A stretch of 64,000 nucleotides of DNA, from positions 1 through 64,000 of the IMG/VR virus record IMGVR_UViG_3300010397_000007; one strand, given 5' to 3'. How positions within the stretch are numbered: the first letter of the stretch is position 1; each line of letters begins with the position of its first letter. The notes under the pieces were generated by a model. That model did not search any database and had not been told where the DNA came from. It saw only the letters and a program-made list of their open reading frames with translations. Of the stretch, positions 1 through 25,259 are shown piece after piece. The position numbers and the translations under genes are program-made. The stretch is from a virus.

Positions 1-2
1 CA

Positions 3-143
3 GCTCTCCCACCGATTGACGATAAAACTAACCCTTACGAATACTGCGTAATCTGCGGGAATCACGTAACTGTCGGATGTGATGGACATGATTTTGATCA
101 CGGGCTGGCCGAGTCCGCTTCCAGGCCTGAGGGGGAGAAATGA
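3..143 (+). CDS. C-terminal part of a small Cys/His-containing protein (5' truncated)
   Basis: An open frame enters from the left edge and codes for 46 residues before the stop. It carries a CVIC pair followed by a further Cys and several His residues (CDGHDFDH), which suggests a small metal-binding protein. The stop overlaps the next start as ATGA, the usual spacing in this gene cluster, which supports real translation. The N-terminus lies outside the window and no function can be assigned. Confidence 0.55.
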   Translation, partial: ALPPIDDKTNPYEYCVICGNHVTVGCDGHDFDHGLAESASRPEGEK

Positions 144-346: not shown

Positions 347-648
347 AATCCTTAGCGGCTACTTTACTTTTGGTCTTGATGGGGTGTTCGAAGCCAAAAC
401 CTTCTGCTGAGATAACTTGGAAGCTGAACACATCTGATCCTGTTGATTCAGGAATTGTCTACTTTACTTCTGCGTCGCACTGCACAATGCGCCAAGGGTA
501 TGTCGAATGCCGCTGCCCGCCCCATGAACTATGCAAGTCAGGCATGACAACTGCGGATATGGAACGAGAGATAGAGGCGATCAATGACCGACTTGGCAAG
601 GCTTATTTTCCTCCTGCTAAGATACCGATTCCAAAGGAACTTCAATGA
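343..648 (+). CDS. putative phage lipoprotein
   Basis: The 101-residue product begins with MKSLAATLLLVLMGCSK, a lysine-containing n-region, a hydrophobic core and a lipobox (LMGC) with the acylated Cys near residue 15. The mature part has several Cys residues, including a CRCPPHELC cluster, so disulfides are likely in the periplasm. It overlaps both neighbours by 4 nt. Phage lipoproteins often serve in superinfection exclusion or envelope modification, but nothing here shows a specific role. Confidence 0.65.
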   Translation: MKSLAATLLLVLMGCSKPKPSAEITWKLNTSDPVDSGIVYFTSASHCTMRQGYVECRCPPHELCKSGMTTADMEREIEAINDRLGKAYFPPAKIPIPKELQ

Positions 649-1058
649 GAACTTTACTTTTACTTTTGCTGGCGACTGTGGCAGTGGGGCAGGAAATTAC
701 GGGGTCTGATGAAATGACTCGACAAGACATGCCTCGACAAGCCTTACGCGAAGATGGCAGCAAGTGTCAGGTGGGAGACCGTGTATTTTACAAGGTTGAG
801 CACGTTACGGACACGGGGATAGACATTTGGTATGTGTGCGAGCCTAAGCTAGAGACTATCGATGTGTCGGCGGGAACAGAAAAGTATTTGGCCCACCATA
901 AAGGTGATTCCTGTGATCGCACCGAATTCCTAACTCACTGCTATTACGGCATAGATGTTTACGAAAATCGTCCGATATGCTCTGACAAACGTCGAGTTAA
1001 AATGCAATCCGAAGATGGGGCTTGGCACTGCATCCTCTTTCCTAAGGACGTGAAATGA
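645..1058 (+). CDS. putative exported Cys-containing protein
   Basis: The first 15 residues (MRTLLLLLLATVAVG) form a clear Sec signal peptide, followed by a polar 120-residue domain with about seven Cys residues. It is the third envelope-directed gene in a row, with 4-nt overlaps on both sides. No family is recognised. The Cys content fits a disulfide-stabilised periplasmic protein. Confidence 0.6.
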   Translation: MRTLLLLLLATVAVGQEITGSDEMTRQDMPRQALREDGSKCQVGDRVFYKVEHVTDTGIDIWYVCEPKLETIDVSAGTEKYLAHHKGDSCDRTEFLTHCYYGIDVYENRPICSDKRRVKMQSEDGAWHCILFPKDVK

Positions 1059-1987
1059 TCGACACTCAAAAGATCGTTGACGCAATTATTGCTTCTGGAG
1101 TGGGGCCTCTCGCAGTCGAGCAGGGAGCTTCGCTTCTCGATAAATGGATTGACGTCTGCTACGAAGAGGATCTCAAACGTAAAGTCGTAGCTGTCGAGAC
1201 TGGCTTCGTTTGCTTCATTGACGACGCGACGGCCATCATCGGCGTTCAAGACTTGTTGACCGAGGAAGATGGAATCATCGTCGGCGGGGAGCATAAGAGC
1301 ACAAAGGAGAGGACTAAATTCTGGAACGAGAACTCCTGGCTAGACTCAATCTCCGAAGGCTCTCAGCTCGGCGTTTACGCTCTCGCCCTGAAAGAGGGGA
1401 CTTACTACGAGAGGGCGACGGGGAAGGAATTCAAGCCAAACACCCCGCTCTCCTACATCCGCGTCCGCGCAGCGTCGAAGTCTAATCCCCCTGACATCTG
1501 GCCACATGATCCTCTACGATCGCTCGTGCATATTAAGCCCGAGAGAATTGCTAGAGTGAGGCAGAGTCTTCTCGTTAAGGCTGCGAGCGTCAGGGCGATG
1601 AAGAGAAGCGGTGAAGGCGCATGGCAATTGCCAGGAATCTGGTGCGTCAATCAATTCCGCAAGACGTGCCAATTTCATGACGATTGTTTGACAGGTAACG
1701 TGCCGCCGAGTGGAGCGGTTAAGTTTGACAGTAGTGATCCGGCTGCGCAGCTATCGTTGGCACATATTGGCGACAGGATTAACAACCCTGACCTTGTGCT
1801 CCTCTCCGCCTCTCAATATTCCACGGTGAGCGAATGCGCGGAGAAGTATCGTAGGATCAATCTGGTAGATGGTCATACGAAGGACGGGGATAGAGCGCTG
1901 GACGTAGGGTCGGCAATGCACGCTGGCCTAGCTGCGTACTATGAACAATTGAGAGATATTCAACAGAAAAATTTAGTAATTGTTTAA
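1055..1987 (+). CDS. PD-(D/E)XK (RecB/Cas4-like) nuclease, motifs apparently in permuted order
   Basis: The 310-residue protein has the catalytic half of a RecB-type nuclease at its N-terminus: GVQD (63-66, the usual GxxD), GGEHK (77-81, the E-x-K motif) and QLGVY (104-108, the QxxxY motif). Cys 197, 205 and 211 follow. The segment that normally begins such nucleases, LSASQYSTVSECAEKYRR (250-267) followed by GSAMHAGLAAYY, is instead at the C-terminus. Either the domain is circularly permuted or a second copy has been truncated and fused. Next to a RecA-fold ATPase and a putative SSB, it likely supplies the exonuclease of a recombination module. The start overlaps the upstream stop (ATGA). Confidence 0.75.
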   Translation: MIDTQKIVDAIIASGVGPLAVEQGASLLDKWIDVCYEEDLKRKVVAVETGFVCFIDDATAIIGVQDLLTEEDGIIVGGEHKSTKERTKFWNENSWLDSISEGSQLGVYALALKEGTYYERATGKEFKPNTPLSYIRVRAASKSNPPDIWPHDPLRSLVHIKPERIARVRQSLLVKAASVRAMKRSGEGAWQLPGIWCVNQFRKTCQFHDDCLTGNVPPSGAVKFDSSDPAAQLSLAHIGDRINNPDLVLLSASQYSTVSECAEKYRRINLVDGHTKDGDRALDVGSAMHAGLAAYYEQLRDIQQKNLVIV

Positions 1988-1996
1988 CGATTTCCC

Positions 1997-2025
1997 TTGA
2001 CATTACCTTAACGTTATCGTAACGT
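1997..2025 (+). promoter_or_regulatory. promoter of the recombination ATPase, built on 11-bp phased repeats
   Basis: TTGACA (1997-2002), a 17-bp spacer and TAACGT (2020-2025) give a -35/-10 pair. The element also reads as three 11-bp units beginning at 1997, 2008 and 2019 (TTGACATTACC, TTAACGTTATC, GTAACGTTTCC). The expected transcription start is near 2032, only about 7 nt before the ATG at 2039. Confidence 0.6.
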
Positions 2026-2038
2026 TTCCTTACCGACT

Positions 2039-2986
2039 ATGACAGCTACTCTGGATGCAGTCGCGCCAAACAACCCTAATCAAGGGAAAGCTACGACAGA
2101 AGTTCCCTCCCCCACAAAGCCCTCCTCCATAACGGCGGCTGTGAATGCCTCCCTGCAATCCAAGCCGCCGAAGGGCTTTTCAGCCTTCAATACTAAGGAT
2201 TTGGAGACGGGCTCGTTTTTTGGCCTACTCTATAGTGAGACGGGGAGCTACAAGACAACTACGGCTGCCAATTTCGGTGGCCCCGAGAAGACCCTCATCC
2301 TCCTCACCCGCAACGCGAGCCAGATGCGTCCTTTGCAGAACGCCGGCTTCCGTGTTGGGCTCATTCAGGATGGTGAGTCCCTCCAATGGGCGCTCCAATT
2401 CCCTGAACGTGCCGCAGAGCACGCTGGATTTCCCGAGTGGAAAGACTTATCCGATCGTGTCCTAGTCGTGGATGACATGACCGAGGGCTCAGAGATGCTC
2501 GTCGATGAGAACCGAACAAAGGACGACGGGTCGGATCAGAAGAATTTGATGAAGGTCTACGGGGATACGAATGGCGTGATCCGTGACCTTCTCACCTCCC
2601 TCCGACGTAAGAAGATGCATGTCATCTTTACCGCTCTCGCAGATGTTAAAGGGTCGGACATTGATACCGACGAAACAATCTTCCCCAAGATGCCCAAGGG
2701 CGCTCGCCAGCTCATCACCGCTGACATGGACTTCGTCTTCTTTATCAAGAAGGAGACTAAGAGATTCCTAACCGACATGGCCTACATCCCCGTGATGCGG
2801 AAGGATGAGAAGACGGGGAAGCAGATCCCTGGGAAAAGGGAAATATTCGCGAAGCACAAGATCAGTAAGGAACTGGTAGGCATGACGCCTCCGTTCGTGA
2901 GGCTGGAAGAGGAGCTTGGCCCTGCGAATGGAACGGGACTTAGGGATTTCTGGAATCGAATTCAAGCGGCGAAGGTGAAGAAGTGA
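2039..2986 (+). CDS. RecA-fold ATPase, Sak4-like recombination protein
   Basis: This is a 315-residue P-loop protein. After a low-complexity N-terminal 60 residues comes a Walker A-like loop, LLYSETGSYKTTT (about 66-78), in which both glycines of GxxxxGK[ST] are replaced (S and Y) while KT is kept. A Walker B strand, RVLVVDDMTE, follows at about 139-148. Size and context (nuclease upstream, zinc ribbon and SSB candidate downstream) match phage Sak4/RAD51-like annealing proteins, which promote strand annealing with an SSB partner. The ATG has no Shine-Dalgarno and lies about 7 nt from the predicted transcription start. Confidence 0.7.
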   Translation: MTATLDAVAPNNPNQGKATTEVPSPTKPSSITAAVNASLQSKPPKGFSAFNTKDLETGSFFGLLYSETGSYKTTTAANFGGPEKTLILLTRNASQMRPLQNAGFRVGLIQDGESLQWALQFPERAAEHAGFPEWKDLSDRVLVVDDMTEGSEMLVDENRTKDDGSDQKNLMKVYGDTNGVIRDLLTSLRRKKMHVIFTALADVKGSDIDTDETIFPKMPKGARQLITADMDFVFFIKKETKRFLTDMAYIPVMRKDEKTGKQIPGKREIFAKHKISKELVGMTPPFVRLEEELGPANGTGLRDFWNRIQAAKVKK

Positions 2987-3306
2987 CCTACGAGTGCGAA
3001 GTTTGCCACGAAGAATGCGGCGCGGAAGATCGCTATCGCGTCTCCACGCATTCCTACCTTAGAGCCCACAAGAAGTGCGCAGAGCGTTACACAATGCTCC
3101 CCTGGGCGGTGCGGATGTACAGGCTCGGCTGCTGCGTGAATTGCGGAAAGAAGAGAGGGGATTCTCCGTACAAGCGTCATTGTGTTGATTGCCGGAAGTC
3201 GATCACGAGCCAGGAGAGGAAGTATAAGGGCTCGTTGAAATGGATGCCAGGAAAGAAGGGTAGGCCGCCAGCATATGTGACGCAAGAGCGGAGAACATCA
3301 TTATGA
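2983..3306 (+). CDS. zinc-binding protein with two Cys clusters
   Basis: The 107-residue basic protein starts MTYECEVCHEEC (CxxC plus Cys) and has a second cluster, CCVNCGKKRGDSPYKRHCVDC, at about 45-65, a typical four-Cys zinc ribbon. The basic, Gly/Pro-rich tail could contact nucleic acid. It starts with a 4-nt overlap on the recombination ATPase and is probably co-translated with it. A recombination or replication accessory role is inferred from position only. Confidence 0.6.
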   Translation: MTYECEVCHEECGAEDRYRVSTHSYLRAHKKCAERYTMLPWAVRMYRLGCCVNCGKKRGDSPYKRHCVDCRKSITSQERKYKGSLKWMPGKKGRPPAYVTQERRTSL

Positions 3307-3494
3307 CAATTCGGGAAGAAGCCCAGAAACAACTTGACGAACTTCATCGCAACAAGCTTTTACAGCAAGCCAAGTGGTTGCTTGCCAATCAGAAAAAACA
3401 CGTACAAGCAATTGCTGAAATCGATGAACTTTTCAAAGAAATTGAAGCGGGAAGGTTGGTCAACAGTTTTCACGCAAGTGAACCAAACCGCTAG
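3303..3494 (+). CDS. small charged helical protein
   Basis: The 63-residue product is almost entirely charged, helix-forming residues (EEAQKQLDELHRNKLLQQA and following), consistent with a coiled coil. It overlaps the upstream stop by 4 nt. No conserved domain is visible. Confidence 0.5.
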   Translation: MTIREEAQKQLDELHRNKLLQQAKWLLANQKKHVQAIAEIDELFKEIEAGRLVNSFHASEPNR

Positions 3495-3540
3495 TAAGTA
3501 AATCAAAGTTTCCATTTTGGAAAAAGGAGAAATAAAGCAC

Positions 3541-4131
3541 ATGTCTTACGATGACACAGAAGTAGTGGATCAAGTGGTAGAAGTTGATGATGTTTTTGAT
3601 ACGGGCAGCATTCCCGTTCCACCAGCGGATCCAGACGCGCATCTTGGCACGATCGAGGGCGTGACTCAGGTAACGTTTGATTCCGGCTCAGTTGCAATTG
3701 ATATCGGTCTCAAAGCGTCCGACACGCCGGGGTTGGACACGCAAAAACGCCTCTTTATTCCCAAGGCGTTCGTAGAAGATATTTTCTGCGACAAGGCAAG
3801 TTTGCCCGAAATTAAGGGCAATAATCAGAAATTTCTATACCGCACCGCTATTGCCAATGACGACGGTACTGCGGATATTCAGGAACTTCTGAAGATTGCA
3901 AAAGAGAATGGTCGTACGAGTTCTTCTCTTGGCCTGAAGAAAGCAGAGAACTTTGACGACTACGTAACCAACTTAGCAGCAATGCTGACCGGCATTGAGG
4001 TTGTTTTCGTTCGCCGTCCGGGGAAAGACGATTTCAAGACGCGGCTGGAAGTTAAGAAGGTTTACGCTCGCAGCGTGTTGGATAACCCTGGGAAGAAATT
4101 CCGTGACGTTCGCTTGGCTTGGGAAAACTAG
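3541..4131 (+). CDS. putative single-stranded DNA-binding protein
   Basis: The ATG at 3541 is preceded by AAGGAGA (3524-3530) at a good distance, so this start is preferred over an upstream in-frame TTG at 3517 that would place the Shine-Dalgarno inside the gene. The 196-residue protein has an acidic N-terminus, a beta-rich centre (VTFDSGSVAIDIGLKAS) and a segment LTGIEVVFVRRPGKDD near 145-160. It follows the nuclease and Sak4-like ATPase and is immediately followed by a strong terminator, the typical place of the SSB in such modules. The OB-fold assignment is inference without a diagnostic motif. Confidence 0.5.
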   Translation: MSYDDTEVVDQVVEVDDVFDTGSIPVPPADPDAHLGTIEGVTQVTFDSGSVAIDIGLKASDTPGLDTQKRLFIPKAFVEDIFCDKASLPEIKGNNQKFLYRTAIANDDGTADIQELLKIAKENGRTSSSLGLKKAENFDDYVTNLAAMLTGIEVVFVRRPGKDDFKTRLEVKKVYARSVLDNPGKKFRDVRLAWEN

Positions 4132-9213: not shown

Positions 9214-10338
9214 GTGCAAGGCCCAATCGCGCAAGCCCTCTCGGCTAGACTGGGCCAACCCTCTCAGCATCCCCTCGTCTCTCAGGGATTCAGCCCTAAC
9301 ATCGTTGAACCCTTTGGGAATAATAGCCTCGGCATAATGATCGTCGGCGAAGCCCCAGGGGAACAGGAAGACGATAGCGGCCAACCTTTTGCCCCGTGGG
9401 CTCCAGCCGGCTCCGTCCTCGCTGCCGCAATCCGTAGAGCTGGTTGCCGTCGTGAGCAATTCGTAATCACCAACGTCGTCCCTGCTAGGCCTCCGAAGAA
9501 CTGGCTAGAAGGCGCTCCTTGGGAGGCGGAGGCGATTAGCTGGGGCCTTGAGCATCTTGACGAGGCTGTGAGGGTGTATAAGCCTCGCGCCATAGTGGCG
9601 CTAGGTAGCATTGCGAGCCGGGTAACGACGGGATTAAGCGGCAGTAAGTTAGGCGTATCCCATCTCAGCGGCTACGCCATTCCATCCCCTCGATATAGCA
9701 TCCCCGTCATCCCCTGCTTCCATCCATCCTTCCTCCGTCGTGGCGCGATGGCTCTGCTTGGAGTCATGGTTAATGCTCTAAGGAAAGCGAAGAAGGTCGC
9801 GGCGGGGCAGATTATATGCGTAGAGCCCCCGGTGGATAGCCCTCCTGAAGGCTACATCTTGCATCCTGACCCCAGCGTTGCTGAGTCATTTTTGCGTGAC
9901 GCCAAAGAAGCAAAATATATTTCCTTCGATATTGAGACCCCTTATTCGACAGATGAGGAGAGCGCGGAAGAAGTAGAAGAAGAACATCGCATAAAGTCGA
10001 TTCAGTTCTCTTTGGCGCAAAGCAGTGGAATATTTATGCCTTGGCGTGACGATTTCATTCCCATTGCGAAAGAAATCTTGGCATTACCGAGACCGAAACT
10101 TGGATGGAATATTTGGCATTTTGACAACCCAGTCCTTTATGAGCACAGTTGCAAAATCGCTGGCGAACAACACGACTTGATTTGGGCTTGGCATCACTTA
10201 CAGCCCGATTTGCCGAGAGGGTTGCAGTTTGCTGCCGGCCAGTTGGGTTGGCCGTATCCATGGAAGCATCTTAGCGGCTCCGATCAGGAATTTTACGGAA
10301 TTGTGGACGTGGAGGTACTCCAATGGATGGTTGCTTAA
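9214..10338 (+). CDS. uracil-DNA glycosylase fused to the 3'-5' exonuclease part of DNA polymerase
   Basis: Residues about 1-195 form a family 4/5-type uracil-DNA glycosylase: IMIVGEAPGEQEDDSGQPF (42-60), ITNVVPARPP, and the HPSF loop (PCFHPSFLRRG). Residues about 220-370 are a DnaQ-like exonuclease: YISFDIETP (Exo I), KLGWNIWHFDNPVL (Exo II) and YGIVDVEVLQW (Exo III, Y-x3-D). The frame then stops where a family A polymerase should continue; the polymerase resumes at 10780, beyond an HNH gene. This is the N-terminal piece of a split UDG-Exo-Pol protein. GTG start at 9214. Confidence 0.85.
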   Translation: MQGPIAQALSARLGQPSQHPLVSQGFSPNIVEPFGNNSLGIMIVGEAPGEQEDDSGQPFAPWAPAGSVLAAAIRRAGCRREQFVITNVVPARPPKNWLEGAPWEAEAISWGLEHLDEAVRVYKPRAIVALGSIASRVTTGLSGSKLGVSHLSGYAIPSPRYSIPVIPCFHPSFLRRGAMALLGVMVNALRKAKKVAAGQIICVEPPVDSPPEGYILHPDPSVAESFLRDAKEAKYISFDIETPYSTDEESAEEVEEEHRIKSIQFSLAQSSGIFMPWRDDFIPIAKEILALPRPKLGWNIWHFDNPVLYEHSCKIAGEQHDLIWAWHHLQPDLPRGLQFAAGQLGWPYPWKHLSGSDQEFYGIVDVEVLQWMVA

Positions 10339-10793
10339 TACCTCTTGGCCGAAAAGGTTTTGCAATTGTTGATTCAGAAGATTACGAACGTGCTATGCAA
10401 TACAGTTGGGTTATGGTTCCAAAACGTCGTCGCCTATACGCAAGAAGAGAATGGCGCATTGGAAATAGGCTGCGCCGTTACGAGTATCTACATAGTTTTA
10501 TTATGCGTTCACGCGAGCAAATAGATCACCGAAATCTTGACGGACTTGATTGTAGAAAAGCTAACCTGCGTTTTGCGACCGCGCAACAAAATGCGGCCAA
10601 TAAGGAGCGGCGTCCCGGAGGTTCCAGTAAATACAAGGGAGTGTATTGGTCAAAGTCAATAAACCGTTGGGTTGCGCGACTAAGAACTAAGCACCTCTGT
10701 TCATCTACAAACGAAGAAGATGCGGCGAGAGCATACGACGAGGCAGCCCTAAAAATGTATGGGGAGTTTGCGAGGACAAATGGGTTTGTTTGA
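10323..10793 (+). CDS. HNH homing endonuclease with AP2-like DNA-binding domain
   Basis: The 156-residue protein has an HNH segment (YLHSFIMRSREQIDHRNLDG then DCRKANLRFAT) and a C-terminal AP2/ERF-like module (SKYKGVYWSKSINRWVARLR...AYDEAALKMYGEFARTN). Such proteins cut unoccupied alleles and spread their genes. It starts inside the last codons of the exonuclease piece and ends inside the polymerase piece, so it occupies the whole insertion of about 460 bp. No space is left for a group I intron. Confidence 0.9.
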   Translation: MDGCLIPLGRKGFAIVDSEDYERAMQYSWVMVPKRRRLYARREWRIGNRLRRYEYLHSFIMRSREQIDHRNLDGLDCRKANLRFATAQQNAANKERRPGGSSKYKGVYWSKSINRWVARLRTKHLCSSTNEEDAARAYDEAALKMYGEFARTNGFV

Positions 10794-12228
10794 GCGAATG
10801 CAAAAGGCCAACATTTATAGGGGCTATTTGCAACATGTGGTTAAATTAAATCCTGTGTTAGAGCGGGTTTCTGCTAGAGGCATGCCTGTAAATCAGGAAG
10901 GTTTTGATTCTGTTGTCGCCCGTCTCCGTGGTGATTACATGGCGGAGAAGGAGAAGATGCAAAGCCTCGTGCCTGACGAGATTAAAGCAAAGAAGGTTTA
11001 CAAGAAGACCCCAAAGGCAAGGCTCGAAGAGTGTACACAAGTTGACGGAGTTTGGGTACGTACTCTACCTTGGACTCCTTCGAACAAGGGCCTCTGCGCT
11101 TACATTCGCCACCGTGGCCTCAAGGTTCCAAAGAACTTGAAGACCGAGAAGGACACGACGGCGGCGATCGAGATTGCCCGTCTCTCGCGAAAGACGAAGG
11201 ATCCACTCTATGGAGCCGTGATTCAATACCGTAAGGCTCAAACCGTCCTAACCAACCATGTAAAGAATTGGAAACCTGGGCCTGACCAACGAGTTCATAC
11301 ATCTTTCTATTTCGACCCTGCTACAGGCCAACTATCCTCTCGCCGTCCGAACGTTCAAAACGCCCCAAAGCACGACGATCCCGAGTTCGGAGGCTACGCC
11401 AAAGTTTTCCGTTCCATGATTAAGGCTCGTGAGGGGCATACGATTCTTGAGTTCGACTTCAAGTCCTTCCACGCTCAGACTCTCGCTTTCGAGAGTGAAG
11501 ACAAGGACTACCTCCGTCTCGCCAAGCTTGACATCCATTCCTTCCTCGCATCTCATCTCGTCCACGACCCGAAGGCCGGAGGCTGTCTCGCTTGGTCGGA
11601 TGATGAGCTTCGAGAGTACCTAGCTTGGATCAAGAAGAATCACAAGTTCGTCCGTGACTATAAGGCAAAGCGAGCCATTCTTGGCTACGGCTTTGGCATG
11701 GGCTATCGCAAGCTCTACGACATGAATCGTGAGTCCTTCGACGGGCAGAAGGACGCCAAGAATACCCTCGACATGCTTGACTCTGTCTTTCCCGTGACGA
11801 AAAAATGGCGGGAGACGATACGGCATAAGGCTAACGATCAAGGTTACCTGATCTCCCGTCACGGGTACATTCGTTACTTCTGGGAAGTCTTCAGAGAGAG
11901 GAACGATGGCTGGACGCCAGGAGATGACAGCGAGGCCGCTGTAGCGTTCCTGCCGGCGAATGACGCCTTCGGGGAGATTAAGGATCGAATGCTTACGATC
12001 GCAGAGCGGGGACTCGACGAACGCTATGGCCTCATCAATAACGTCCACGACTCCCTTTTGTTCGAATGCCCCGACCCTTTAGTCGAGGAGGCGGTTGGCA
12101 CAATCAAGCCCCTCATGGAGAGCCGCTCGCAAGTCCTTATTTCTCCTAAGGTTGCACCGCTGGGTTTAAGCGTTGAAGTAGATGTCCAAGCAGGCCGTGA
12201 CTGGGCCAGCCTGCGGGGAGTCGCGTAA
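10780..12228 (+). CDS. family A DNA polymerase, polymerase domain piece
   Basis: The 482-residue piece starts MGLFERMQKANIYRG, which matches the helix that follows Exo III in Pol I-like proteins. It contains motif A (FDFKSFHAQTLAFES), motif B/O-helix (RAILGYGFGMGYRKLYD) and motif C (NNVHDSLLFE, with Ser after the catalytic Asp where Glu is usual). ATG 10780 has GAGG just upstream; an in-frame ATG at 10759 is the alternative. It must work with the exonuclease piece encoded at 9214-10338, which is in the same frame, so both come from one ancestral gene split by HNH insertion. Confidence 0.85.
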   Translation: MGLFERMQKANIYRGYLQHVVKLNPVLERVSARGMPVNQEGFDSVVARLRGDYMAEKEKMQSLVPDEIKAKKVYKKTPKARLEECTQVDGVWVRTLPWTPSNKGLCAYIRHRGLKVPKNLKTEKDTTAAIEIARLSRKTKDPLYGAVIQYRKAQTVLTNHVKNWKPGPDQRVHTSFYFDPATGQLSSRRPNVQNAPKHDDPEFGGYAKVFRSMIKAREGHTILEFDFKSFHAQTLAFESEDKDYLRLAKLDIHSFLASHLVHDPKAGGCLAWSDDELREYLAWIKKNHKFVRDYKAKRAILGYGFGMGYRKLYDMNRESFDGQKDAKNTLDMLDSVFPVTKKWRETIRHKANDQGYLISRHGYIRYFWEVFRERNDGWTPGDDSEAAVAFLPANDAFGEIKDRMLTIAERGLDERYGLINNVHDSLLFECPDPLVEEAVGTIKPLMESRSQVLISPKVAPLGLSVEVDVQAGRDWASLRGVA

Positions 12229-16333: not shown

Positions 16334-19300
16334 CTAATTGCCAATGCATTGATAGAGCAACACGTCCGTTCCAGTACCCGTCAACGCAAACGCAGAGCCG
16401 GAAGATGCCACAAATTTCACTGCATTCGCCGCCGTGGTGTCGATGGCCGTGCAGGAGTAAGAGGAAGAATTAGTGAACACTGCGGAACCTGTCAGGGTTA
16501 CTGAGCAACTCGTTCCCAGAGTGCAGGTATCGATAACGATATGCACGCCAGTTTGTTGCGTTCCGCTGTGATTATAGGTAGTGGGAACCGTCGTCAGATT
16601 GGCCACCGGAGTCGTACTGGTGACCACGAATGGTGCAGTGCCAGTGCCCAGCGTTGACGTAATCTGCGAATTCGTCGTTATCGGAATCTTGAAGGTATGG
16701 AGCGCGGCAGCTATCCGCTCTACCCAATTCGTGCCATCAAAGAGATGGTTGATCTGAAAATCAATTCCAGCGGCTCCACGTAGGCCAAGGAAGGAATTCG
16801 CTGGAGTAAGGACGCTTGAGTTGTCAAGCCCGATTGCCGAATCAGCCGCGTCAGCGAGAGGGCGAAGGCTTCCTCCGGCGGCAGTCTTTGCAAAGTTTGA
16901 GTCGAGGACGGTTATGATGTCGGTGGCAGCGAGTGAGCCCACATTCCCTAGTGTTCCTAGCCACAATCCTTTAGCATTAATCGCCGCGCCGTTATAATGA
17001 ATTTCTGGTGTGATGGATGACGTTCCCACTGCTCCTGCTAGGCTGGGATCGCCAGTTTGGCAGCTCATTACTGCTGAGCCTGTAGCCATTCCTGTAGCAC
17101 AGCTTTGAGCAATAACGGTGGGGCCATTGGCTCCGGCGGTAGAGGCTGCCGAATTATTAGACCCACCCCAGAAATCAGTAATGTATTCCGTTCCTCCGTT
17201 ATGAACGTTGTTTGTGTCAGAGGACGGGCCGAGAACAACGTCGGTAGACCATTGGTCGATTTTGGGAAAGTAAGCTGCCGCTGCTACTGTGTAGGAGGTA
17301 GTGTTGACGGTGATATCGTCGGTAATTGTGCAGGTTCCACCAGAACAGACTGTTCCTTGAGCTTGAGCCAGTGCAACCGATCCGCAGGCGGAAACTGATC
17401 CTCCACCGCAATTCGCAGTATACGGCCCCGACTGAGAGCCGTCGCCGACAATGCGAATAACGTCATAGGTAATCGTTCCAGTTGAACCTATGGCATACCA
17501 CTTGACTGTACACGTTCCAGCCCCCGATGATAGACATTTACCAAGTAGAAGCGGAGCCCCTGTACCGAGGGTCGAAGACTTTGGAACAATGTAATACCAA
17601 AATTGAGTTGATCCCGAGGAGCTGGCCGTGAGAGTTGGGTATTTTCCCGTGGGGCCGACGCCGCCAGTCTTAACGCAGCGCCCGCCTTGACAGATGATGC
17701 CTGCTGTTCCAGTCCCCAAGGGATTAGTGCAGGAGCCTACTTCTTGATAGACGTTGTTAAGTTCGGCAGCAGTATTTACGTCGAATGCGCCTAAAGCCCT
17801 AATGCCCCATTGATTGTAGGCTTGCACAACGCTGTCTCGAATGGAAAAGGTATTTCCAGACTGCCAATCCACGGCGTTCCCGAGACATTGCATCGACATG
17901 TCATTGTGAATGGCGTACCCAACTGCCCCACTGTTTAACGTCGTACCAAATAGTCCAACACCGCACCACGCCGTCGTGCATCTAAGTGGCGGCCCGTTTC
18001 CGCTATTAAATGTGCTGTCCTGTAACGTGAACTTTTCATCATCGTCAACTTTTATCAGGTAGTCGAAAACGTCCGTCGAGTTAATAAACGCAAACCCAAC
18101 ATGGTCGATCGTTAGTTCCTGTCCGTGGTCATGGATCACAACTGTCGAGCCGTTGTCCGTATGGCCAATGCCCGCAAGGGGAGCGAAGTTTACATTGCGA
18201 ATGGCCCCCAGTCGTGGGAAACTGTTTACTCCCGACGAGAGACTATCCCCATATTCCACGCAGGCCATTCCAGAAGTGTTGCAACGAATGGATGCGCCTT
18301 GCCCATCAAGAATGTTGGGTGAAGATGATCCGTGCGCCCAGTTCATATTTAATGGGGCGTTGAAAACTGCGATCTGTGTGAGATCGCTAGTTGGGCTAAG
18401 GAGAACGTGAGCACCAAGGATAGGGTTATGCGTAGAGTCTGTCGGGTAAGCGTCAACGAACGCTTCCTGTACTCCCGCAGTTGCCGTACCGAGCGTAAAG
18501 CCCGCAGCGTGTGTTCCCGCCGCAGTGAAGGTTACGGTGCATGTGCCACTTGAGAGTCCGGTGCAAGTGGTTGCCGTGATAAGTACCCGTTCTGGTGTGC
18601 CGGTTGCGGCGACCCACAGATAATGCTTGAATGGGGTCACGCTGGCAGCAGCAACTCCGCGTACCGCATTAATAGTCACCACGTTTGCGCCGATAGAGAT
18701 CGTCCCAGAGGGCGATTGCACCCAAGCGAACTGATCTGCATATCGAGTCTGTTCGTGAACGTTTGTATTAAAGCTGGTTAGAGTTGGCTGGGTAATTGTC
18801 TGTGCTCCAATTGGAGCCTGAAACACATCTCCCCCACCGCCTCCGCCTGAGAATGTACAATTTGTGCGTTGATTAACAGAGTCGTCAGAGCAACCCGAGG
18901 CGAAATTGATTATCGATCGTTTCGGAAGAGGAATCGCGCCGTTCTCTACCGTCTGATACGCCTGAGTAATGATATGTGAGAAATCAAATGGCGCAGGGGG
19001 CAAAGGCGGCGTAGTGCAAGGAACCGCGCTATTGAGATCGAACGTTGGAGTATTGGGGATGCAGTAGTTCCCACTTGATGTTGCCTTCCCATCGATCCAA
19101 TATTCAACCGTCCACCATGTACAGGCTGTGGCGCTATTTGGATTGCAATTGTTTGGCGTGATGACATCGTTTGAATAGAGATTGGTGGAGAAGTTGCCTT
19201 CAGTGTCCGTCGGCTTAACATCAAATTGTGTCTGTACCAAAATCCCATCCCCACTCACACGCGGAACGAAGCCGGCAAAGTTGCGTAGCCGGAAACGGAC

Positions 19301-20830
19301 AAAGGAGTTTCCCTTGACGCCGGAAGTTGAGCCGGATTGGAGGGTGCCAGTAACAGCGACGGTGCCTGTTCCTATGACAACGGGTTCCGCCATGGTCACA
19401 GAAGTTGGGTTAATGATTGCTGGCTTACCTACCGCCCGTACACGGAATGTGCTGGATGATGGGAGGAAGCTGATATCTACGGAGCCCGTAAGGGCGACAG
19501 GGATGCCAGTGACGCCGACTTGCATTGACGTGCCGTCTGCGCCGTAAAGCACTTCCATGTGATCGAGTGTTGAGAGAGAAGCATAGGTCGCATCGGTGGG
19601 GGTAAGAACCCAGGAGAGAGTAGTCCCGATGATAGTTCCGTTGATTGTGTAACAAGGGTCAATACCAGTCTCAATTTCCGTCCCCTCTTCATAATCGTTC
19701 CATTGAACTTGGACGTAGGGGATCTGACTAGAAGAAGAGTATCCCGCCGCGCCGATTTTCGCAGCGGTTAAATCCATAACCTGTCCGCACTGTTGCGAGG
19801 TTACCTTATTAGTTCCGAATGAAGCATTAGAGTCGTCAAACCCTTTCCCAATGAAGCCGATTGCAAGTTTAGAGGGATTAGCCCGAGCGACGGAGTAGAA
19901 ATTGTCATAGTAACCCGCTAGGCCGTTCCAATTCAATTGGCTGCCTGCCGGAAGATTGTCGAATGTAGAAGCTTGAGACCACGCGAATGATCCGTCAAGT
20001 CCAGTTTGTGTGAACGCGCCTGAGTTGCGGCTAAGAATTAGAACCTGTGCGGTGTACGTACAGCCCCCGCCGCAAGATTGTCCTAAGGCAACGTGGGCGT
20101 GGACATGAGGCCAAACGTTGTTCCAGACGACCGAGGGCCAGTTTGTAGTATCGATGAAGAAAGGGACGACGGGCTTTCCGCCGAAGGTCTCATAGTAGGA
20201 CTGGTAGAGGTAATGAGATGCCATGTAATCAAGGCGATTCTCGATACATGCTTCCATTTGGGCATCATTGATTCCTGCGCCATTTGGGCAAAAGGGTTGA
20301 ATCGCTCCCTGATCCAGCGTGAGCATCAACTTTGGATAGCCAGCGGGATTTCCCGCGATTGCTGTATTGACTGCATTCGTGACACTAAGATTGAATGCCT
20401 TCGATGCGTCATCTCCGTAGTAGTCAATGTCGACTGCATCAATCCCAGATGCCTTCATCGCCGCCAACTGCGCCGCTACCTGTGAAGCATTTGACTCGTC
20501 CATGCCAATGTTAAGGTGCGAGTTACACGGCGAGGAAGAGTTACAGAACCACGGTTGGTAGTGGGCAAGAATTCGTGTCGTTGCGCCGGGATACAAACGG
20601 TTCTTATGCGGCAAGAGACTGTAATTTGCAGGCGCAGGAACAGGCGTCTGCGTAATCGCATTCGTATGGGCAGGATCAGTCGTTAACGCTGTGGTTGCAG
20701 CATTGCAGCCTACGGTGGACGCACCTGGGCCAGTACATCCCGAGCCGTTATGGGCGAGAGGATTGAACGTCTGCGCGGTTAGGGCAAAAGGGAAGAAGAA
20801 GATGACGAGAAATAAGAGTTTACGGGTCAT
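16334..20830 (-). CDS. large fibre/receptor-binding protein with GH71/GH99-like domain and signal peptide
   Basis: The 1498-residue protein begins with a Sec-like signal (MTRKLLFLVIFFFPFALTAQ). Residues about 70-400 resemble a GH99/GH71-type glycoside hydrolase barrel: RILAHYQPWF, MKASGIDAVDIDYYG, and VQWNDYEEGTEIE with acidic residues. A Pro-rich linker and Gly-rich run (about 690) lead to a long beta-rich fibre region with repeats. It is the last gene of the fibre cluster, near lysis genes, as tail fibres often are. It may degrade host surface glycans. The signal peptide is unexpected for a virion protein. Confidence 0.65.
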   Translation of the reverse strand: MTRKLLFLVIFFFPFALTAQTFNPLAHNGSGCTGPGASTVGCNAATTALTTDPAHTNAITQTPVPAPANYSLLPHKNRLYPGATTRILAHYQPWFCNSSSPCNSHLNIGMDESNASQVAAQLAAMKASGIDAVDIDYYGDDASKAFNLSVTNAVNTAIAGNPAGYPKLMLTLDQGAIQPFCPNGAGINDAQMEACIENRLDYMASHYLYQSYYETFGGKPVVPFFIDTTNWPSVVWNNVWPHVHAHVALGQSCGGGCTYTAQVLILSRNSGAFTQTGLDGSFAWSQASTFDNLPAGSQLNWNGLAGYYDNFYSVARANPSKLAIGFIGKGFDDSNASFGTNKVTSQQCGQVMDLTAAKIGAAGYSSSSQIPYVQVQWNDYEEGTEIETGIDPCYTINGTIIGTTLSWVLTPTDATYASLSTLDHMEVLYGADGTSMQVGVTGIPVALTGSVDISFLPSSSTFRVRAVGKPAIINPTSVTMAEPVVIGTGTVAVTGTLQSGSTSGVKGNSFVRFRLRNFAGFVPRVSGDGILVQTQFDVKPTDTEGNFSTNLYSNDVITPNNCNPNSATACTWWTVEYWIDGKATSSGNYCIPNTPTFDLNSAVPCTTPPLPPAPFDFSHIITQAYQTVENGAIPLPKRSIINFASGCSDDSVNQRTNCTFSGGGGGGDVFQAPIGAQTITQPTLTSFNTNVHEQTRYADQFAWVQSPSGTISIGANVVTINAVRGVAAASVTPFKHYLWVAATGTPERVLITATTCTGLSSGTCTVTFTAAGTHAAGFTLGTATAGVQEAFVDAYPTDSTHNPILGAHVLLSPTSDLTQIAVFNAPLNMNWAHGSSSPNILDGQGASIRCNTSGMACVEYGDSLSSGVNSFPRLGAIRNVNFAPLAGIGHTDNGSTVVIHDHGQELTIDHVGFAFINSTDVFDYLIKVDDDEKFTLQDSTFNSGNGPPLRCTTAWCGVGLFGTTLNSGAVGYAIHNDMSMQCLGNAVDWQSGNTFSIRDSVVQAYNQWGIRALGAFDVNTAAELNNVYQEVGSCTNPLGTGTAGIICQGGRCVKTGGVGPTGKYPTLTASSSGSTQFWYYIVPKSSTLGTGAPLLLGKCLSSGAGTCTVKWYAIGSTGTITYDVIRIVGDGSQSGPYTANCGGGSVSACGSVALAQAQGTVCSGGTCTITDDITVNTTSYTVAAAAYFPKIDQWSTDVVLGPSSDTNNVHNGGTEYITDFWGGSNNSAASTAGANGPTVIAQSCATGMATGSAVMSCQTGDPSLAGAVGTSSITPEIHYNGAAINAKGLWLGTLGNVGSLAATDIITVLDSNFAKTAAGGSLRPLADAADSAIGLDNSSVLTPANSFLGLRGAAGIDFQINHLFDGTNWVERIAAALHTFKIPITTNSQITSTLGTGTAPFVVTSTTPVANLTTVPTTYNHSGTQQTGVHIVIDTCTLGTSCSVTLTGSAVFTNSSSYSCTAIDTTAANAVKFVASSGSAFALTGTGTDVLLYQCIGN

Positions 20831-23800
20831 TTAATTACGTATGCTCCCTTTGGTTTTGCCGCCGCGTTTATCTGAGAAGAGAAATTTGGCGAGATGCCGG
20901 TGCCATTCAAAGTAATCGTCTGCGGTGAGTCCGAAGCAGAATCGGTTAATGTAATAGTTGCTGTGCGAGAACCAATGGCCGTCGGAGTAAACGTCACAGT
21001 AATGACGCATGACGACGAAATCCCAAGGTTACCCGCAATGGGGCAGGTATTCGACTGAAAGAAATCAGATGGATTCGTACCACCAAGAACAATTGATGAG
21101 ATTGATAAAACGAAACTTCCCGTATTGGTGAGCGTAATCGGCTGCGAGACGCTCGTTGTCTGCGTCCGCTGTGGGCCAAAGGTTAGAACGTTCGCGGTAA
21201 GCTGTGCGATTGGCACTCCCGGTGCCTGTTCGCCATAGCAAGTCGCTGGATCATAGGCTCCTCCAGATCCCGGCCCTGACGCATAGCAGATCTGTGCGGG
21301 AAGGGCATTCACGCGGGTTCCGGCATTCGGAGCGATCGGGGGAAACGGCACACCCGTCACCGTAAAGAAGTTTGGAGTCGTTGTTAGATATAGAGAATTC
21401 GGAAGCGTCTGCGAGGGGGCATAGGTAGTGACGATGCTCCCTGAGGGAACGTTATTGTTCCAGATGACCGATGCCGAGTTGCAATCCCAGTTGCCGCCGC
21501 GAAGGATCGTCGCGCCTACCTTAGCTGAGAGCGTTAGATTGGGAGATGCTGTACCGCCATCGTCGAAGTAACCTAACTTGTAAATTGTCGCAGAATCAGC
21601 TTGGTCAGCATTTCGTTCGTAATTCGTAGCGGTACATGTCCCGGTATTTGGCCCAAAAACGTTTCCGTAGACGTTGAAGTAGTTATTGTAATAAGCGAGC
21701 GTCAGTGCGTAGAGCCCACCAGTCATCGGCGTTCCTGTGCTCGGATTCGTAGAGAGCAGGGGAACGTAGTTACGGAAGACTGTATTGTGCGAGGCAGAGC
21801 CCGCAACGAAGTCGAAGTTGATATTCGGCGTGTAGTTTCCTTCCCACAAATTCATGTAAGGATGTGCGCCGTGAGTGTTCTTCTCTGGCAGCGAGTTCTG
21901 CGTCAACTGTTGGTAAGAGTCAAACATGTAGTTGTACGCGAAGACGTTGCCAGAGCCACCGATAAGGATCGTTGAGTGACGAGCCTTACGGATGATGTTG
22001 TTGACTACGAGGTTCTCAGAGAGACGGAATTCCCCGTAGATAGCATAGGTCTCGCCGGAGAGATGTGAGTAGCCGTCGAAGAGATAGTTGTTTGAAATTT
22101 CAGAACCGTAAACGTCTGACATGTAGATATTCGCACGGTCTACGGCGAGGTCAGATTCAACGTTGTGAACCCAGCAATGGGCGCAAGCTTCGAGGTTGAT
22201 GTTCTTGAATACGATCCCGGTGCCAGAGGAAACCGTGCTGGCAAGCTTTAGGTTCTCAAGTCCAACATTCTCAATCATCGGGATCTTGTAAACCTGCGGC
22301 GCGTTTGTGTAGTCGATGTAGAGCGGACGTTCGAGGGTCACAACGCTGCCGGCGATGTTAGTGATGCGATCAACCTGAATCATGACCTTCGTCGGCTGGT
22401 TGTGGCCGCAGAAGGTACAGTTCGAAGAGTTACCTTGAGTCTGAACGAGAGGATTGCCATCGGAGTCAATAGGATTCGTCTCGGTGATACCGAGATAATT
22501 GCCGATCGCAAGGCCTGCCACACTAGCGAGAGTGATCGATGTTGATCCCTGGCTCGCGCCCGCCGTGACGTTGATGTAAACCGCGTTCGTACCATTCAGG
22601 TACGTTGTACCCATTGAAATGATGTTTGCGCCGTCACCATAGTTAATGGTCGTCTGATTCGCACCTGCGCCGCGAAGGACTACGGACTTATCCGTAAGGC
22701 AGAGACCGGCTTCATAAACGCCGCCGCCGAAGTCATCTGACTTTCCAGGGCAGACTGTGGGGGTTCCGCCAGTGCGATGGATGGTAAAGGTGCCAGCGTT
22801 CAACTTTACGACTGATCCCGCCGCGCAGTTATTGATCGCAGTTTGAATTGCTGTTGAGTCATCTGCTCCCCCACCGATCGGTGAGAGTGTCGCGCAGATG
22901 GGCCATGCAGCAGAGGGGATACCTCCGGGGATACCTACGTGTGTCCAATCGATTTGTCGAGTCGAAGGGATACCGTTGGTGGTGACGGTGAAATTTGTGC
23001 CTAGCGAAACAAGAGAGCTAACCGTAATAACAACGTTGCCTGTAGTAGCTCCGACGGGGACGGTAAAGGTAATCGATGTATCAGACCAACTGGCAATAGA
23101 TGTAACGTTAGTCCCATTCACTGTAATAGTGCTTGATCCGGCAGCCTGAGAAGCTCCAAAGTTACTTCCAGTAATCGTTACAGACGTACCAACGGGGCCA
23201 AGAACAGGATTGATCGAGGAGATAATTGGAGTAATCGGCCCGCCGCCAGTTTGTACCGGATTTGGATAAACCATTGCCGTGTAGGTATGGGTAGACGAAC
23301 AGGTATCAGTGCTCGTCCAGACACCAAACATTGAGGATGGTTGAGAGCCTGAGACAAAATAATCACGGTTGATGTCTACGCCAGGGTTCTCTCCACCGTC
23401 ACCTTTAATCGCAATCGCCGCGTCATTGTTCCAAATATAGATTGGAGCTGTGTTGCGAGTGCCAGAGGCACAGGTAGAATGTCCATCCGTTTGTCCATTC
23501 CACCCACTCCCAGCCTGATATGCACGCGGCCATGTACCAGTGTCTTCCTCGAACATATCTATGCCAACGTTAGAGGTAGCGTTTGTACCAGAATGCGTGT
23601 TGTCGTGAATGAACCCCGATCCCGCACGAATCTCGATATAGCAGCATTGCTGCGGTGTTGGGCCACCAGAGGAGGCAACCTGACGGAATTCATTGTTATT
23701 GATGTCGAAGAAGCGAGCGCCGACATTTGCGAGACCAGGAGTCCCGTGTTGGTCAATCTGCATGTTGATAAGCAGATTGTGGCGGAAAATTGTGCGGGCC

Positions 23801-24486
23801 CCATTGTAAGACTGGAGGGCGGAGGCTCCGAAGAAGAATGGCTGACCGCTTAGGTCGAGAGAAAAGGTATTGTCTTCGACAACGGTTGTATCGTTCTGAG
23901 AACCATCAGTGACGAGGTTGGTAGTCCAGCCTGTCGTGTTGTTCGTACCGTAGCCCGTGACGTGAATTAGCTCGTTAGGGCCGTTCGCTTGGGTGGTATT
24001 AAATGTATTGTGGTCGATCTCAACTGGGCCATTGCCGGAGACCGTGACACATGTGTTATTCGACGTAGTCGTGGTAAATGTGTTGTGGTCAATGCGGATG
24101 TATCCCTGACCTGGGGAGCCATCTCCCGTAACGGGGTATTGGTTGGCCGTTCCTGCGGGATTGCAATTCGTGACGATGAATCCAGTCATCCGCTGGATTG
24201 CAGAGGAGCTTGGCGGGCTGTTAAGTTGAAAGCCCCAGAGAGAAAGAGTAGTGTTGCCGCCGCCATCAATGGTGATTGCTTTGGAAGCCGCGACAGCGAT
24301 CTTTGCGGAATAGGCAACCGTGCAGGGGCGGTGCGCCGCATCGATGTTTACCGTGTCCCCGCTTACTGCCGTGCTGACTGCGGTAGTCATGTCTGCTTGG
24401 GAACACGTGGGAGCGGTAACGGTTGATGCGAAGGCCGAAGCGCAACCGAATAGGAATACCAGAGCGATGAGTTTAAGAATCTTCAA
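20827..24486 (-). CDS. fibre protein with two beta-helix regions, IPT/TIG and choice-of-anchor-D domains
   Basis: The 1219-residue product starts with a signal peptide (MKILKLIALVFLFGCASAFA). A right-handed beta-helix-type region (about 25-410) has recurring 'IDHNTF/VEDNTF' rungs. An IPT/TIG domain follows (INPVLGPVGTSVTITGSNFG, about 420-505), then a second pectate-lyase-like beta-helix (about 530-1050) and a C-terminal choice-of-anchor-D/ASH-type Ig domain (LTNTGSFVLSISSIVLGGTN...). Beta-helix proteins on phage tails commonly bind or cleave polysaccharide. The domain mix looks borrowed from exported acidobacterial proteins. It overlaps the previous gene by 4 nt. Confidence 0.65.
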   Translation of the reverse strand: MKILKLIALVFLFGCASAFASTVTAPTCSQADMTTAVSTAVSGDTVNIDAAHRPCTVAYSAKIAVAASKAITIDGGGNTTLSLWGFQLNSPPSSSAIQRMTGFIVTNCNPAGTANQYPVTGDGSPGQGYIRIDHNTFTTTTSNNTCVTVSGNGPVEIDHNTFNTTQANGPNELIHVTGYGTNNTTGWTTNLVTDGSQNDTTVVEDNTFSLDLSGQPFFFGASALQSYNGARTIFRHNLLINMQIDQHGTPGLANVGARFFDINNNEFRQVASSGGPTPQQCCYIEIRAGSGFIHDNTHSGTNATSNVGIDMFEEDTGTWPRAYQAGSGWNGQTDGHSTCASGTRNTAPIYIWNNDAAIAIKGDGGENPGVDINRDYFVSGSQPSSMFGVWTSTDTCSSTHTYTAMVYPNPVQTGGGPITPIISSINPVLGPVGTSVTITGSNFGASQAAGSSTITVNGTNVTSIASWSDTSITFTVPVGATTGNVVITVSSLVSLGTNFTVTTNGIPSTRQIDWTHVGIPGGIPSAAWPICATLSPIGGGADDSTAIQTAINNCAAGSVVKLNAGTFTIHRTGGTPTVCPGKSDDFGGGVYEAGLCLTDKSVVLRGAGANQTTINYGDGANIISMGTTYLNGTNAVYINVTAGASQGSTSITLASVAGLAIGNYLGITETNPIDSDGNPLVQTQGNSSNCTFCGHNQPTKVMIQVDRITNIAGSVVTLERPLYIDYTNAPQVYKIPMIENVGLENLKLASTVSSGTGIVFKNINLEACAHCWVHNVESDLAVDRANIYMSDVYGSEISNNYLFDGYSHLSGETYAIYGEFRLSENLVVNNIIRKARHSTILIGGSGNVFAYNYMFDSYQQLTQNSLPEKNTHGAHPYMNLWEGNYTPNINFDFVAGSASHNTVFRNYVPLLSTNPSTGTPMTGGLYALTLAYYNNYFNVYGNVFGPNTGTCTATNYERNADQADSATIYKLGYFDDGGTASPNLTLSAKVGATILRGGNWDCNSASVIWNNNVPSGSIVTTYAPSQTLPNSLYLTTTPNFFTVTGVPFPPIAPNAGTRVNALPAQICYASGPGSGGAYDPATCYGEQAPGVPIAQLTANVLTFGPQRTQTTSVSQPITLTNTGSFVLSISSIVLGGTNPSDFFQSNTCPIAGNLGISSSCVITVTFTPTAIGSRTATITLTDSASDSPQTITLNGTGISPNFSSQINAAAKPKGAYVIK

Positions 24487-25259
24487 TTTTTGAACGCCCC
24501 CGCCACAACGACCCAGTTATCGTTTGAATCCCCAGTCCAAGAAATGCTTGTCGTATTTCCCGCTGCGCGTGAGGCCGCGTGGGTTCCGCAACCGTTATGT
24601 GTGCTGTAGTTAGTGACGTGAATCGATGTGTTACCACTGGTGCCAATTGAATCTCCATTACAAGACTCAGCGAAGACGAGATCATTCGCGCCTGAGGCAC
24701 CAAGGGTTAAGGTCGTTGAAGTCCCAACGCCGTTATTCGATCCTGTCACACTCAAGGCTGTCGTCTGGTTAACGTTGTACGCGGTGATCGCGGTTACGAG
24801 AACGGAAGAGAAAATTGATGGAAGTGCGCCCGCAAGGGTAACGACGACCGTGTTCGATCCAGTCGCAGGTTGTGTTCCGTTCGGAAGCTGCCAGAGGTCG
24901 CAATAGTATTGCGGTGCTCCGACTGCTTTATGTACAGTCTGCGAGAGGGAAACGCTATTGTAAGTAACCGTGGAGACAAGGGGAGCAGTTAAGCCAGTCG
25001 TCGCTCCTACACATACATTCACCACCATCCCACGATTAGCATTTGTCGTAGTAACGTGAGTGAAAGATGCAACGGTGTTTGTCGTACACTGAGGCCCTTG
25101 TCCTGAACCGTCGCATTCGAAGTGAGTAGCGGCATCGAAGGTGACAGTCGTTCCGCCCCCGGCGGATGCTATCTGTCGCCCCGCGAGCGTATTCGTGGGA
25201 ACGTATTGCGCTGGCGCGGTGAGTGCGAAAGCTAAAAGAAATGCGAATATCTTCCTCAT
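24483..25259 (-). CDS. exported beta-rich fibre-associated protein
   Basis: The 258-residue protein has a signal peptide (MRKIFAFLLAFALTAPAQ) and a jelly-roll-like beta domain with paired Cys (HFECDGSGQGPQC, VNVCVG). It ends VVVAGAFKN. The layout 'SFTHVTTTNANRGMVVNVCV...VTYNSVSL...LWQLPNGTQPATGSN' is typical of surface beta-sandwiches in fibre clusters. It overlaps the next gene by 4 nt and is translated with the large fibres. Confidence 0.5.
   Translation of the reverse strand: MRKIFAFLLAFALTAPAQYVPTNTLAGRQIASAGGGTTVTFDAATHFECDGSGQGPQCTTNTVASFTHVTTTNANRGMVVNVCVGATTGLTAPLVSTVTYNSVSLSQTVHKAVGAPQYYCDLWQLPNGTQPATGSNTVVVTLAGALPSIFSSVLVTAITAYNVNQTTALSVTGSNNGVGTSTTLTLGASGANDLVFAESCNGDSIGTSGNTSIHVTNYSTHNGCGTHAASRAAGNTTSISWTGDSNDNWVVVAGAFKN

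Follow-up and report, generated by a model that had tools for sequence, protein, structure and literature searches.

Here, we describe a viral nuclease gene which, at the level of its sequence, is a circular permutation of a Cas4/RecB-like PD-(D/E)XK nuclease, the segment that opens the canonical protein being found at the C-terminus (Table 1). It is located in the window, i.e., the whole analysed stretch of 64,000 nucleotides, covering positions 1 to 64,000 of the IMG/VR record IMGVR_UViG_3300010397_000007. The original prediction of an apparently permuted RecB/Cas4-like nuclease was borne out, as Pfam, HMM, and hhalign analyses all revealed two parts matching one family in swapped order. The gene probably encodes a functional Cas4-like (PDDEXK_1) exonuclease whose first helical segment has moved to the C-terminus, with the tail folding back on its own core and the enzyme resecting DNA for a Sak4-like partner. 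This explanation is drawn from one permuted sequence.

Table 1. Features of the permuted nuclease locus and of related split genes (positions refer to the window unless a locus is named).
Feature	Position	Strand	Details and basis
Circularly permuted Cas4/RecB-like PD-(D/E)XK nuclease gene	1055..1987	+	310 aa; ORF, Pfam, alignment, rotation scores
Residues 1-215: helices, PD-(D/E)XK core, C-terminal cysteine cluster	1055..1699	+	PF12705 109-222 over residues 41-177; core-row alignment
Catalytic motif residues D66, E79, K81, Q104, Y108	1250..1378	+	Alignments
C197, C205, C211, predicted iron-sulphur ligands (three of a set of four)	1643..1687	+	Alignments
Residues 216-250: linker from old C-terminus to old N-terminus	1700..1804	+	Matches no family; low confidence in either model
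Residues 251-310: relocated N-terminal segment containing C261 and G-x3-H (285-289)	1805..1984	+	PF12705 3-56 alone; 0/1000 shuffles
Sak4-like recombinase/annealing protein, likely functional partner	2039..2986	+	phrog_124 E 4.2e-16; AAA_24
L080 N-segment gene, 64 aa	L080:1764-1958		Upstream of core; N-segment only
L080 core gene, 225 aa	L080:2633-3310		674 bp downstream of segment gene; core only
L085 (OX376641) segment and core genes			Overlap by 17 bp, different frames
L079 split pair	L079:2995-3222 and 3215-3760		8-bp overlap; slightly later split point

The ATG of the nuclease gene overlaps the stop codon of the upstream gene (ATGA), which is an operon-like arrangement. The catalytic motifs and the Cys cluster come first, as had been claimed: GVQD (D66), GEHK (E79, K81), and QLGVY (Q104, Y108), together spanning residues 66-108, are followed by cysteines 197, 205, and 211. 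The last part of the protein carries SASQYSTVSECAEKYRR (residues 251-267, with C261) and GSAMHAGLAAYY (residues 285-296), the latter ending 14 residues from the stop. According to the alignments, the catalytic D, E/D-x-K, and Q-x3-Y of PDDEXK_1 are all present, and so are the four cysteines of a predicted Cas4-type iron-sulphur site, with C261 in the tail and C197, C205, and C211 in the core, the latter three in an unusual C-x7-C-x5-C spacing. An alignment of the core with 40 natural and split rows (A7) revealed E48, D66, K81, Q104, L105, Y108, C197, and C205 to be invariant and C211 to be nearly so. The tail has a GC3 of 0.50 and the core one of 0.61; the value of the tail falls just under the range of core windows (0.52-0.75).

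In native order, PF12705 (PDDEXK_1) positions 109-222 match residues 41-177 with 49.5 bits (cut-off 22). The last 60 residues alone match PF12705 positions 3-56 (E 8.3e-5, 23.1 bits, cut-off 22), which means that the tail matches RecB/Cas4-type N-termini independently and that the canonical N-terminal segment indeed lies at the C-terminus, as originally predicted. Two PHROG exonuclease families match the tail as well, family 1218 at its extreme N-terminal end (6-59 of 364) and family 69 at 84-138 of 501. Moreover, HMMs built from natural-order proteins recognised both parts, scoring 13.7 bits for the tail with the N-segment HMM and 15.8 bits for the core with the core HMM, and in neither case did any of 1000 shuffles score as high.

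The claim that joining the end to the start would restore a normal order also held. With the tail placed in front, a single stretch covered PF12705 3-222 and scored 52.3 bits versus 49.5 in native order, and the global hhalign score against a profile of 38 natural-order proteins rose from 28.6 to 51-53. Among the 52 rotations scored, the best one started at residue 241 (52.8); rotations starting at 115-145 also reached about 50, because there, too, the tail precedes the core. In the controls, 60 shuffled proteins scored at most 8.4, and 100 shuffled tails joined to the real core at most 31.6 versus 51.1 with the real tail. In a local HMM rotation test, the native order scored 17.1 bits, as did the best rotations, and 499 of 500 shuffled-tail controls were as high; this test is uninformative because the local match never takes in the tail. 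As neither Pfam nor hhalign found the canonical order, N-segment before core, in the native protein, it is regarded as a permuted homologue and not as a standard PDDEXK_1 member.

A tail-first alignment could be built with five normal-order phage nucleases, namely those of D29 (gp69), Gollum, PHL041M10, 019DV004, and phiKSUM, in which two serines, four cysteines, G, H, E, D, Q, L, Y, and a proline are invariant; when the protein was aligned in native order, the tail was misplaced. Mycobacterium phage D29 gp69, a pfam12705 protein, likewise has a PD-(D/E)XK core, QLGVYA, four cysteines, and a segment with S-x-S...C and G-x3-H, but it displays the canonical order with the segment first and about 22% identity in the rearranged alignment. 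The JG054 RecB was rejected as a relative, since by eye it belongs to another subfamily and has the normal order.

An AF2 model built with 40 core rows only had a mean pLDDT of 56.8, with block means of 72-88 for residues 1-80 and values mostly below 50 in the tail. Structural comparison placed residues 1-191 of this model on AdnA 841-1022 (Z 8.3) and on the Cas4-family protein ACE1 from residue 77-83 onwards (Z 7.4-7.8, where Z below 8 can reflect a common arrangement). The structural match thus starts past the N-terminal segment of ACE1, so the protein appears to begin where the canonical N-segment has ended. For a second AF2 model, 24 N-segment rows were aligned to the tail (A9); mean pLDDT was 62.7, pTM rose from 0.45 to 0.60, and the tail helix 281-300 was predicted at pLDDT 89-93. 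Residues 186-238, comprising the cysteine cluster and the linker, stayed below 50, the last core cysteine of the A9 alignment is not at C211, and the structural matches were weaker (AdnA Z 6.8, ACE1 Z 5.9). Because the A9 rows were chosen for the expected register, the second model counts as support for the permuted reading and not as proof of it.

The nuclease domains of ACE1 (Argonaute-associated according to its PDB title), AdnA, AddAB, RecB, and Dna2 share a core fold like that of the model, but in them the segment is N-terminal, as in the canonical fold, and most of them are fused to helicases. CAS-Cas4 (TIGR00372) shares the broad fold and the cysteine plan; the permuted nuclease did not match it, nor any other NCBIfam family at E ≤ 1, and no cas genes were found among the ten other window genes scanned.

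Permutation by duplication is a standard route, and the tail ends soon past the first helix, both of which would suit a truncated tandem duplicate, i.e., a two-copy remnant in which the tail is the non-functional stub of a second copy and the core lacks an N-terminus of its own. We consider this unlikely: S-x-S, the cysteine, and G-x3-H all persist in the tail, whose frame is open, no other N-segment for the core was found in the record, and direct repeats of more than 15 nt are absent from positions 600-3000. A further copy of the nuclease was also not found in the 69,041-base record, where both the protein and PF12705 gave one match. As a history, truncated duplication may well apply; it would leave an identical permuted gene, so it is not the opposite of permutation. 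An assembly chimera or a chance resemblance is very improbable. The arrangement is known from one record only, but the in-frame join, the overlapping start, the intact motifs, and the strong shuffle controls all argue for a real gene. In addition, an identical direct repeat of 123 bp is found at window positions 1-123 and at the end of the record (L002), as in a complete circular assembly. On account of this repeat, the 69-kb record probably represents a whole genome, either circular or terminally redundant.

Other features of the record were noted as well. A DNA polymerase gene is apparently interrupted (window 9214-12228), with a uracil-DNA glycosylase and polymerase-like part, an HNH/AP2 endonuclease ORF, and a PolA domain; no Rfam intron was found there. 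On the minus strand, positions 16334-27847 encode four secreted-looking proteins of 258-1498 aa. One of them ends in a repeat domain common in Acidobacteriota, and the style of these proteins may hint at a host from that phylum.

Searches for relatives of the permuted protein in viral-contig and genome-contig collections, from which very near records may be missing, revealed no kin of the phage. None was found either via Sak4, terminase, integrase (in genome contigs), or the motif pattern, and none of 93 stretches retrieved with alignment A3 was confirmed; the helicase search gave one distant contig of 412 kb. In the phages collection, Sak4 had no match, terminase and helicase had distant ones, and the native protein had none by tblastn at E 0.01. 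The rearranged protein, searched against phages and plasmids at E 10, gave only weak matches to unrelated genes or unannotated places. The PDB contained no sequence match. The top structural matches among the viral proteins of BFVD, A0A6J5MFE0 (E 5e-6, 329 columns) and A0A6J5NSY1, both aligned over more than 300 columns, exceeding their own length; they are perhaps in the same permuted order, though long alignments also arise for weak matches. A permuted or split Cas4-like nuclease was not found in the titles and abstracts of the literature searched, where coverage of subscription papers is thin.

The same two modules, broken at or near the same hinge, occur as two polypeptides in other viruses, with the segment gene upstream; these split nucleases belong to another sequence clade. 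A search with a D29-like alignment yielded 70 loci, L080 among them, and using the cores of L080 and L085 as queries gave 294 relatives, 80 of which were carried forward. Among the 150 loci counted (L015-L164), segment and core share one normally ordered ORF in 80 and occupy two ORFs in 64, and no segment was called in six. Of these six, L084 apparently carries its segment within the same ORF under the threshold (by eye), and the remaining five have a core ORF that starts no more than 332 bases from the locus start. The permuted arrangement was seen in none of the 150, a count in which equally diverged permuted copies would escape, since the counting profiles missed the locus of the permuted protein itself (L007). 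L080 and 61 further contigs among L086-L151 form a large clade of IMG/VR phage contigs with a two-gene nuclease, which we take to be probably freshwater phages.

In all 64 split loci, the segment lies upstream of the core on the same strand, usually with a gap of about 370-750 bp. S-x-S-x7-C and G-x-A-F-H are kept in 62 of the 64 segments, the catalytic motif in 63 of the cores, and the CxxC-x5/6-C pattern in 62 of them; deviations occur in L115 and L151 (truncated at the stretch end), L146 (a frame break), and L079 (an extra residue between the first two cysteines). The split pair of L079 adjoins a RecA-like ATPase gene (by eye). Small genes lie between segment and core, and in four of five inspected loci they include a gene of 72-75 aa that contains Cys, or a similar one (in L080 by eye and in another frame). 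Taken alone, split segments match the start of PF12705 (L085 at E 2.6e-7; L111 at 9.5e-4 and L080 at 7.9e-3, both below the cut-off), while the split cores match the remainder. No Rfam family, introns included, was detected in the window or in five split loci, so no known intron family accounts for the split in these five. Segment and core are both under purifying selection in the tested pairs: dN/dS in ten split pairs was 0.00-0.10 for segments (dS computable in six) and 0.04-0.15 for cores (in eight), with most dS values near saturation. Such short segment genes are easily overlooked in phage annotation.

With both parts carried as separate genes in 64 of 150 related loci, and with split cores beginning at about the same hinge as the permuted protein, the latter may have arisen by fission followed by re-fusion in reverse order, a history that is compatible with the preferred explanation and that we hold only tentatively. 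The first seven residues, MIDTQKI, are common to the permuted protein and the split cores of L080, L086, and L087, but this identity may reflect chance or a common helix start. The permuted protein is also not nested in the split clade: core and tail score 2.7 and 5.1 bits with the split profiles versus 15.8 and 13.7 with the natural ones, 7 of 1000 shuffles reach the 2.7 bits of the core, which thus shows no kinship with split cores, and the invariably upstream position of split segments does not favour a reversed fusion. Outside MIDTQKI, the protein does not come nearer to the split clade, and we therefore see in the split phages a proof of principle for the hinge and not a parent. Since other phages carry the two modules as separate genes split close to the same hinge, new ends are tolerated there.

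The rearrangement places the G-x3-H helix and the first cysteine of the predicted iron-sulphur site at the C-terminus. One cluster is bound in the canonical fold by the N-terminal cysteine together with the three C-terminal ones; judging from that known fold, the old ends should therefore be neighbours within reach of a short linker. Some 35 linker residues would bridge them, the new ends would lie in the loop connecting helices one and two, and the tail would fold back on its own core, completing the cluster and the helical DNA-binding side. The segment can evidently complete a core from another chain, provided that the split genes are active. This would also allow a domain-swapped oligomer, in which the tail completes a neighbouring subunit instead of its own core; we regard this as improbable and favour the fold-back within one chain.

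From its motifs and gene context, the protein is most likely a working recombination exonuclease beside the Sak4-like recombinase gene, and its end resection would most likely feed annealing-type recombination by that neighbour. Cas4-family proteins are described as a nuclease domain with a four-cysteine cluster module, and pfam12705 members as occurring in mycobacteriophages and others (PMC5704561); pairs of an exonuclease and a Sak4-like protein are described in phages (PMC3483164). Before the Sak4-like gene (window 1985-2038), TTGACA...TAACGT with a spacing of 17 bp was noticed by eye and may be a promoter.

The enzyme thus appears to work as two rearrangeable modules. It is conceivable, if doubtful, that N-segment and core are separable and re-joinable, that in split phages two chains have to form a single iron-sulphur site, and that at least one re-fusion in reverse order followed such a fission and produced the permutation, the split clade illustrating a possible intermediate state. 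The permuted and split forms make the interplay of the nuclease core and the cluster with the N-terminal cysteine arm directly testable, since these natural proteins offer the arm removed, supplied by another chain, or moved to the opposite end.
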